Assembly (NCBI RefSeq): GCF_000022545.1 | Contig: NC_012883.1 | Location: 798,276 to 862,275 of the forward strand | Length of the DNA stretch: 64,000 bases | Reading direction: 5' to 3' | Source of the DNA: Thermococcus sibiricus MM 739 | GTDB lineage: Archaea > Methanobacteriota_B > Thermococci > Thermococcales > Thermococcaceae | Shown here: positions 6,453-8,954 of the stretch, piece after piece | Position numbering within the stretch: position 1 is the first letter of the stretch | Layout: each line of letters opens with the position of its first letter | Program-made: the position numbers and the translations under genes | Notes under the pieces: generated by a model | Databases searched by the model: none | The model's input: only the letters and a program-made list of their open reading frames with translations | Told to the model about the DNA's origin: nothing

Positions 6453-6917
6453 TTATGGAGAATCAATAACTTCAAGGAAGTCAACTTTCCTAAAATCCTC
6501 ATCAAAAGTTGCTATCTTCTTTATCCCAAAGTGTTTACATGTAGCGGCTATTATCGCGTCGTTGGTCAAAAGGGCGTATTCCTCTCCAATTTTTGCAGAT
6601 AACTCAAGTATTTCCCAGTTGACTTCGACAACCTTTAAAAGTTCATTTTTTATTAGTAGTGCAATTGACTCTTTAACCTTCCCATAAGTCCAAGCATATT
6701 TGTCTAAATGCTTTTTTAGATCATGAACTCCCTTTAATCCATCCTTAAGGGCCAGAGTAAACATAACTTTATACGCTGTTTCAGAGAAAACTATGGGATT
6801 TATAATTAGGATGCATCCCCTTTCTATGAGGGATTTCACAAGTTCTTTTGCTTTCTCGTCTCCGAGATTTAAGCCAACCAGCACAGAAGAATCAATAAAA
6901 ACCTCAGAGGGACTCAT
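6453..6917 (-). CDS. vapC: VapC-type PIN-domain toxin (ribonuclease)
   Basis: 154 residues. The PIN-domain acidic residues appear in VFIDSSVL (first Asp), the NPIVFSE segment (Glu), LLTNDAIIAA (Asp) and ATFDEDFRKV (Asp). The start is the ATG at 6917, with GGAGG upstream inside the antitoxin gene; a longer frame starting at 6992 would run through most of the antitoxin's end. The antitoxin gene overlaps it by 14 bp, the normal antitoxin-first arrangement. It is expected to cleave RNA when free of its partner. Confidence 0.88.
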   Translation of the reverse strand: MSPSEVFIDSSVLVGLNLGDEKAKELVKSLIERGCILIINPIVFSETAYKVMFTLALKDGLKGVHDLKKHLDKYAWTYGKVKESIALLIKNELLKVVEVNWEILELSAKIGEEYALLTNDAIIAATCKHFGIKKIATFDEDFRKVDFLEVIDSP

Positions 6918-7101
6918 AATAAGCCTCCTTGAGCTTTTTGTAATCGATATTCTCAATCTTCTCAATAACCATTGAGTTGAGAAGTTTATCAAGCTCCTCC
7001 TCGTCTATTATCTTGATGATGACTTTTGAGTGCTCTTTGAGCTTCAATTTTTTCAGGGGCTTTAACACCCCATTCTCATAAACGGCCTCAATAACCTGCA
7101 T
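6904..7101 (-). CDS. vapB: AF2212/DUF104-type antitoxin paired with VapC
   Basis: 65 residues beginning MQVIEAVYENGVLKPL, the hallmark start of the AF2212-like (DUF104) antitoxin family: a small N-terminal beta domain that binds DNA, then a helical toxin-binding tail. GGTGAG lies 2-7 nt before the ATG at 7101; a second ATG at 7113 is possible but less well placed. It overlaps the PIN gene, giving a classic toxin-antitoxin operon. Confidence 0.85.
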   Translation of the reverse strand: MQVIEAVYENGVLKPLKKLKLKEHSKVIIKIIDEEELDKLLNSMVIEKIENIDYKKLKEAYYESL

Positions 7102-7265
7102 AACTCTCACCATAAGAAATTTTATTTTTGAAGAATTTAAGGTTTTGGTGTTGGTTTTTGAATCATATATTAACAAGGGAAGCAAAAGGTGGGAGATGTG
7201 TTAATGGATCAATAGAGGGGAAAAATTATAGAGAATTGATGTTAGGGATGTAATGATCTCTAAAT

Positions 7266-7676: not shown

Positions 7677-7780
7677 CTTTCACCCTCCTTCTTCCCGTTA
7701 GCAAATCTTTCATCAGCCCACGCTTAACGCGTTCAAGCAAGAGATGTATTTTTAGCAAACTCGATAATTACTTTTTCTTT

Positions 7781-7816
7781 TGAAAGCCTCGCCCTTAAGG
7801 GCGGGAAGGAGATCAG
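7781..7816 (+). mobile_element. Solo IS200/IS605-type right-end hairpin (copy 1)
   Basis: TGAAAGCCTCGCCCTTAAGG and the following GCGGG arm form the GC-rich hairpin followed by AAGGAGATCAG that ends tnpB-bearing IS605-family elements in Thermococcales (family knowledge from memory). No tnpA or tnpB gene is nearby. It abuts the dehydratase fragment at 7817-7975, and could mark the break in that gene. Confidence 0.5.
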
Positions 7817-7975
7817 TTCCTTAAGCTTTCCCCTAATTGTTTGTCTTGCTAGGTTTCCAATTCTATGAGCTGCCGCCACATGAGAACTAGAAGGTCCTCT
7901 CATAATCGGCCCGATTACATCATTAGATATACTTGAGGCAACTTTGCCATCTGCTTCGCCTCTTCTAATCTTTAT
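7817..7975 (-). pseudogene. Fragment of a GPSSSH-motif dehydratase (L-serine dehydratase-like)
   Basis: An open stretch of about 53 codons on the minus strand reads SNDVIGPIMRGPSSSHVAAA followed by HRIGNLARQTIRGK. The GPSSSH motif is the signature of the iron-sulfur L-serine dehydratase group. An in-frame TAA lies just upstream at 7976-7978, and similarity fades into the IS605-type hairpin downstream. There is no start codon, so this is a gene fragment. The exact dehydratase is uncertain. Confidence 0.6.
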
Positions 7976-8018
7976 TTACAGAAGTATAGGGGGTTTCTCG
8001 TTAAATAGATTTAGCATG

Positions 8019-8237
8019 AAATGTGGCCCGCCCGTAACGACCGCTCTCATTGAAGCCATAAGGCACTCTCAAGCGGCTTAACCCAGGCGGGCCAGAATAG
8101 TGTACTCGGCCAGGGTTTCCCACGGTCATTGCGCTCCGTAACGCGGAAGGCCCTTCCGTGGGGACCTCGCTATGGCCGAGCTGTTGCCCCCGCATCGCCC
8201 CCACCTTCATTATTTGGGCGGGTCCTCGCGCAGGGGC
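8019..8237 (-). ncRNA. Candidate triple-hairpin H/ACA guide RNA
   Basis: A GC-rich transcript in AT-rich surroundings folds by eye into three consecutive hairpins, at 8186-8237, 8105-8180 and 8025-8093. Lower stems are GCCCCTGC/GCGGGGGC (one G-U), CTCGGCCA/TGGCCGAG and GGCCCGCC/GGCGGGCC. Each is followed within 0-2 nt by ACA (8184-8182, 8103-8101, 8024-8022). Each also has an internal loop suited to a pseudouridylation pocket, and AATGA on the 3' side of the upper stem, consistent with an L7Ae-binding K-turn or K-loop. A TATA box lies about 25 nt before the predicted 5' end. Three-unit H/ACA RNAs are known from Pyrococcus. Targets were not assigned. Confidence 0.75.
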
Positions 8238-8257
8238 ATTATAAATTAGGGTGTTCC

Positions 8258-8265
8258 TTTATAAA
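8258..8265 (-). promoter_or_regulatory. TATA box of the H/ACA RNA
   Basis: On the minus strand the sequence GGATTTATAAAGG is centred about 25 nt upstream of 8237, the first base of hairpin 1. It overlaps the stop codon of the HAD hydrolase gene, so the RNA seems to have its own promoter at that gene's end. Confidence 0.6.
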
Positions 8266-8924
8266 TCCTTATCTATTAGCGAACGTACCAATTGGACGAG
8301 CTCGTTCAAATTTTCTACATAGTAATCAGCACCCTCTATCTTTCCAAATCTCATTACCTGCACGGCCTTAGCTCCAGCTCCATGGGCGGCCAAAATATCT
8401 GAAAGCGAATCGCCTACTACAAGGGCCTCTTTGGGGGAAACTTCTAGTGCTTTGAGGGATTTTTTGATTAAATATGGGTTAGGTTTAGCACCATCTAAAT
8501 ACTTGTAGTCCTTCCCAAGAACAACATCAAAATACCTTTTTAGGCCAAAAAGGTTTAATACAAATTCTGTGCAGTCTTGAGAGGCATTACTCACCGCTGC
8601 CATTTTTAAGCCCATCTCTTTGAAAGTCTTTAAGACATCAACATCCAGAAAAGCCTTTATTAAACCCTGCTCCGCGGCCCACTTTCTGTATTTAAGTTTC
8701 GCCCTGTCTATGGCTTTCCAGAATTCCACATGATCTACACCGAGGTTCTCGACCCAACTTCGTGGCAGTTTTCCCTTTACCATCTTTTTGTATGTTTCAA
8801 AATCTACGTTGGCCTCAAGATTTTTTATCTCCCTTTTAGCCCACTTTTCAAACCATTCCTTACCATCATAGCTCTCATAATACACGAGGGTCTCATCAAC
8901 ATCAAAGATTAGAGCTTTTATCAT
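8259..8924 (-). CDS. HAD-superfamily hydrolase
   Basis: 221 residues. Motif I is IFDVDETLVYY (the DxDxT nucleophile and acid) at residues 6-16, motif II is AAVSNAS, motif III is the Lys in GAKPNPYLIKK, and motif IV is VVGDSLSDILAA. A helical cap lies between residues 20 and 90. It should be a Mg-dependent small-molecule phosphatase of unknown substrate. The ATG at 8924 has GGGAGG upstream; the TTG five codons earlier is less likely. The H/ACA RNA begins just beyond its 3' end. Confidence 0.88.
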   Translation of the reverse strand: MIKALIFDVDETLVYYESYDGKEWFEKWAKREIKNLEANVDFETYKKMVKGKLPRSWVENLGVDHVEFWKAIDRAKLKYRKWAAEQGLIKAFLDVDVLKTFKEMGLKMAAVSNASQDCTEFVLNLFGLKRYFDVVLGKDYKYLDGAKPNPYLIKKSLKALEVSPKEALVVGDSLSDILAAHGAGAKAVQVMRFGKIEGADYYVENLNELVQLVRSLIDKDL

Positions 8925-8954
8925 CTTATCCTCCCTCAAAGGATTTAATCCAAT

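Follow-up and report, generated by a model that had tools for sequence, protein, structure and literature searches.

The closest described relatives of the RNA reported here belong to the archaeal family HgcG (Rfam RF00064), known as Pab40 in P. abyssi and as Pf7 in P. furiosus. In the published work, Pab40 is a three-motif H/ACA guide that was studied by experiment and guides pseudouridylation in vitro, and the targets listed there for this ortholog are Pa40.1-L2588, Pa40.2-L1932 and Pa40.3-L2016 (PMC4652768). By RNA-seq, the P. abyssi RNA was placed at 382,389-622, with a 5' end shorter and a 3' end longer than those of the Rfam entry (PMC4652768). Related hairpins have been described in other archaea as well, the haloarchaeal Hvo1/Hvo2 as homologs of HgcG hairpins II and III and the A. 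fulgidus Afu4 motif Af4.3 as closely related to HgcG hairpin III. The criterion applied to archaeal H/ACA RNAs is a hairpin composed of stem, internal loop and stem, with an ACA box on its 3' side at a distance of 14-15 nt from the upper stem.

Identity, fold and boundaries of the HgcG locus

Within the window, which is the whole 64,000-nucleotide stretch of T. sibiricus DNA that was analysed, one minus-strand locus is almost certainly the ortholog of HgcG, a three-hairpin box H/ACA guide RNA with its own TATA promoter, a start at or near 8237 and 23S rRNA targets U2594, U1938 and U2022. It is an already-known archaeal small RNA and ordinary in its setting. In the present genome this reading is based on homology, on the fold, on where the promoter lies, on how the pockets complement their targets and on the presence of the guide proteins; its expression and the modification of rRNA in T. 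sibiricus are expected by analogy with orthologs, for which transcription and in vitro guiding are known. The features of the locus and of its promoter are as follows.

8022..8237, minus strand: HgcG/Pab40-type H/ACA guide RNA with three hairpins (RF00064 match 8017-8291 and P. abyssi RNA-seq start)
8258..8265, minus strand: promoter TATA box TTTATAAA (sequence), shared in part with the end of the HAD gene (last codon and stop)
8259-8939, minus strand: HAD-family hydrolase gene (PF00702, E 9.4e-24), whose 3' end holds the promoter of the RNA
8185..8238, minus strand: hairpin 1, lower stem 8238-8230/8193-8185 (fold and alignment)
8229-8224 and 8198-8194, minus strand: hairpin 1 guides, 5' GCGAGG and 3' GCGAU
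8211-8207, minus strand: hairpin 1 K-loop AAUGA, 3' side of the upper stem
8184-8182, minus strand: ACA box of hairpin 1 (sequence)
8104..8181, minus strand: hairpin 2, lower stem 8181-8174/8111-8104 and upper stem 8162-8156/8119-8125 (fold and covariation)
8173-8163 and 8117-8112, minus strand: hairpin 2 long 5' internal loop and 3' guide AACCCU
8130-8126, minus strand: hairpin 2 K-turn AAUGA, 3' side of the upper stem
8103-8101, minus strand: ACA box of hairpin 2 (sequence)
8025..8093, minus strand: hairpin 3, lower stem 8093-8085/8033-8025 (fold and alignment)
8084-8079 and 8038-8034, minus strand: hairpin 3 guides, 5' GGGUUA and 3' GUUAC
8051-8047, minus strand: hairpin 3 K-turn AAUGA, 3' side of the upper stem
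8024-8022, minus strand: ACA box of hairpin 3 (sequence)

The Rfam scan matched RF00064 (HgcG, H/ACA snoRNA type, Pab40) to 8291-8017 on the minus strand with 197.5 bits and E 6.8e-56, spanning model positions 1-276 of 276 and exceeding the curated gathering threshold of 77, and this is the only above-threshold RF00064 copy in the genome. A preliminary description of the region, made from the letters of the DNA, had proposed a three-hairpin H/ACA guide RNA and had named the Rfam search as a check, and the match bears out this proposal by assigning it to the known family HgcG/Pab40/Pf7. The RNA had also been called hidden there, which it is not, since Rfam-based annotation of any kind would pick up HgcG.

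For the minus-strand RNA between 8237 and 8017, the predicted fold consists of three separate hairpins with a free energy of -113.5 kcal/mol (z = -5.46), a stability reached by none of 200 shuffled sequences, and an internal loop separates the lower from the upper stem in each of them. A thermodynamic fold with the stems of the preliminary description was thereby found, and the three hairpins, each with its ACA end, AATGA and internal loop, are all present on the minus strand, no strand having been named beforehand. G+C content peaks at the RNA with about 0.56-0.59 versus about 0.40 in the surroundings. In hairpins 1 and 3, the distance between the first base pair of the 10-bp GA stem and ACA is 14 nt, which fits the archaeal H/ACA criterion. 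Two other readings of the same letters were rejected, namely a plus-strand RNA, with a weaker fold (z = -2.4) and without a family match, and a 69-amino-acid open reading frame at 8001-8210 on the minus strand, considered mechanical because it overlaps the HgcG RNA.

The motif TATAAA is located at 8263-8258 on the minus strand, i.e. at -26 to -21 relative to 8237, in keeping with the TATA box that had been proposed at -25 of the first base, and relatives carry an AT-rich TATA-like element at the same aligned place. In the P. abyssi genome, the RF00064 match coincides exactly with the published Pab40 coordinates 382,332-604. Upon alignment, the P. abyssi RNA-seq start, which is the G of GCCCC, falls exactly on window position 8237, the very first base of the preliminary description, so that its suggestion to consult RNA-seq is answered by the data of the ortholog. 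RF00064 positions 1-54 (window 8291-8238) constitute the 54 nt upstream of the RNA start and correspond here to the promoter and HAD coding sequence, and the start at 8237 is a better boundary than that of Rfam. Judged by the ortholog, the 5' end of the RNA is likely at 8237, and the mature 3' end, by analogy with P. abyssi, probably lies about 20 nt beyond the last ACA (around 7999).

Predicted rRNA targets and the pairing of hairpin 2

Pockets were scored against every U in the 16S and 23S rRNA of the same genome, with 300 shuffled pockets each as control. Hairpin 3 matches LSU U2022 with 11/11 bases and hairpin 1 matches LSU U2594 with 10/11 (one G-U), in both cases ahead of every other uridine in the two rRNAs, with 0/300 and 9/300 shuffled pockets as good, respectively. 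The 3' guide AACCCU of hairpin 2 matches 6/6 bases before LSU U1938, while its 5' guide pairs poorly there, and as the minimal pocket at this position is no better than chance (215 of 300 shuffled pockets as good), the assignment of U1938 rests on homology together with the 3' guide match. LSU 2594, 1938 and 2022 correspond to P. abyssi U2588, U1932 and U2016, each at exactly +6, and hence the published spacing is kept. These target stretches are identical across 17 Thermococcales 23S genes, with the exception of one base in one genome, located 3' of the hairpin 3 pairing region. Thus, the comparison of pockets with 16S and 23S rRNA that the preliminary description had recommended gave a positive outcome, strong for hairpins 1 and 3 and by the 3' guide only for hairpin 2.

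Cbf5, Nop10, Gar1 and L7Ae are all four encoded in the genome with matches above cut-off, in agreement with the earlier link of this RNA to H/ACA RNPs through Cbf5 and L7Ae. Loss of cbf5, nop10 or gar1 in T. kodakarensis is accompanied by loss of the U2592 modification (PMC6138745). In the proposed mechanism, Cbf5-Nop10-Gar1 would bind each hairpin at the lower stem and ACA box, L7Ae would bind its K-turn or K-loop, and the internal loop would pair with the stretches of 23S rRNA that flank a single uridine, the substrate that Cbf5 would isomerise to pseudouridine, with LSU U2594 as the predicted target of hairpin 1, U1938 that of hairpin 2 and U2022 in helix 69 that of hairpin 3.

The upper stem of hairpin 2 (8162-8156/8119-8125) is paired in 33/33 sequences with compensatory changes, the pair 8159-8122 occurring among them as A-U, G-C, C-G, U-G and G-U, and compensatory changes are likewise present in the upper stem of hairpin 1. 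For the stem that the Rfam consensus gives in hairpin 2 (8142-8136/8125-8131), the share of paired cells is 100% among Pyrococcus-type sequences and 67-74% in the other genera with good sampling, and double changes are absent. As far as the aligned sequences go, the Rfam pairing of hairpin 2 is unsupported outside the Pyrococcus-type sequences. GGUC forms the end of the 5' guide in the covarying fold, and together with AACCC it matches LSU 2684 on 9/9 bases, a score reached by 1/300 shuffled pockets; this pocket was picked after looking and is therefore a lead rather than a result. From the sequence context of E. coli 23S rRNA, we take the U at LSU 2684 to be the equivalent of E. coli U2586. 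A tentative and rather doubtful proposal is that hairpin 2 in the covarying fold guides, or once guided, pseudouridylation at this position next to the peptidyl transferase centre, either alongside the published U1932 equivalent or in its place. An H. volcanii homolog was predicted to target the U2586-equivalent position (PMC2584109).

A separate observation concerns the 5' internal loop of hairpin 2, AGCGAGGUC (8173-8163, minus strand), which is invariant in 33/33 sequences and contains AGCGAGG, complementary 7/7 to the rRNA just 3' of U2594, the target of hairpin 1, which gives hairpins 1 and 2 the look of ancient duplicates.

Conservation, K-turn deviations and genomic setting

RF00064 was matched above cut-off in 33 of 61 searched genomes, all from the family to which T. 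sibiricus belongs. The preliminary description had suggested examining relatives, and HgcG is indeed conserved in them, with matches in 30/30 of these Thermococcales genomes that are at least 90% complete; the other three matches are in incomplete genomes, and the four family members lacking a match have genomes 61-79% complete. In this 61-genome search, no genome of another family and not one of 14 control genomes exceeded the cut-off, and a pattern scan of genome records gave matches only in Thermococcus and other Thermococcaceae/Thermococci. The 33 distinct HgcG sequences have pairwise identities of about 72-99%. Biologically, HgcG is a conserved housekeeping guide.

In archaeal H/ACA guides, a K-turn or K-loop with tandem sheared G-A pairs is expected in the upper stem. 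The AUGA strand is present in all three hairpins, with its partner GA intact in hairpin 3 and AA in its place in hairpins 1 and 2 of this genome. The partner base at 8215 in hairpin 1, as a rule a G, reads A in 9/33 sequences (the window and genus-mates), and the corresponding position 8155 in hairpin 2 is A in 5/33, this genome among them, and U in P. abyssi. These replacements could weaken L7Ae binding. However, P. abyssi hairpin 2, with U at the equivalent of 8155, is reported as active and appears with a modified target in the published list, and hence A at the K-turn/K-loop position probably does not abolish function. The same substitutions for the sheared-pair G, recurring as they do in relatives, are what would speak for a decayed HgcG copy with at least one hairpin no longer working, an explanation that is very improbable given that this is the sole copy above threshold, that guides, stems and ACA boxes are all intact and that the P. 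abyssi hairpin with its U is listed as productive.

The preliminary description had placed the RNA between a HAD gene and an IS remnant, and the former is the PF00702 gene listed above. That the hairpins belong in cis to the HAD transcript, as a terminator or a structure of its 3' UTR, and not to an independent guide RNA would agree with an RNA start 22 nt past the HAD stop codon and with a HAD gene directly upstream in 10/10 RNA-bearing genomes of the genus, but it is scarcely credible, since the RNA is kept in other Thermococcales genera with the HAD gene adjacent at none of their loci and is thus independent of it, is preceded at the right distance by a TATA box of its own, has a P. abyssi 5' end mapped at the homologous base, and carries pockets that match rRNA.

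On the other side of the HgcG RNA, an HgcC-like element is located at 7741-7829 on the plus strand, with 34.9 bits and hence below the gathering score, and no tnpB was found beside it in the window region examined. The genome contains about 20 such elements at scattered sites, three of them directly downstream of tnpB-type genes, and the element at 7741-7829 is therefore probably either the relic of an omega RNA or an IS200/IS605 end that stands alone, which lends support to the earlier notion of an IS remnant. Positions 7811-7945 on the minus strand encode an N-terminal fragment of the beta subunit of an iron-sulfur L-serine ammonia-lyase (TIGR00719; the match, with E 6.2e-8, falls short of the cut-off), which ends abruptly by the HgcC-like element and was found in the fetched HgcG flanks of none of the relatives. 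Further away, 6453-6992 and 6904-7185 on the minus strand encode a PIN-domain protein and, adjoining it, a small protein that is AF2212-like; the two probably form a toxin-antitoxin pair.

Comparison with known guide RNAs

This locus illustrates that a reader with the raw sequence alone can correctly recover a known guide RNA and find a better 5' boundary for it than Rfam gives. For specialists, the useful points are confined to this 5' boundary of HgcG and to the pairing of hairpin 2 in the Rfam consensus.

HgcE/Pab105 (RF00060) is likewise an H/ACA guide, but a different RNA with two motifs, and a match of HgcE to hairpin 3 was rejected, as its 31.7 bits are below the gathering score and reflect common H/ACA features. 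With HgcG/Pab40/Pf7 (RF00064), the window RNA has in common the order of the hairpins, the ACA boxes, the pockets, the targets and the spacing from TATA box to start. It departs from this family at one K-turn/K-loop position, which in hairpins 1 and 2 is A rather than G, and by a short spacer that separates hairpin 2 from hairpin 3, whereas the Pyrococcus RNA has these two hairpins without a spacer.
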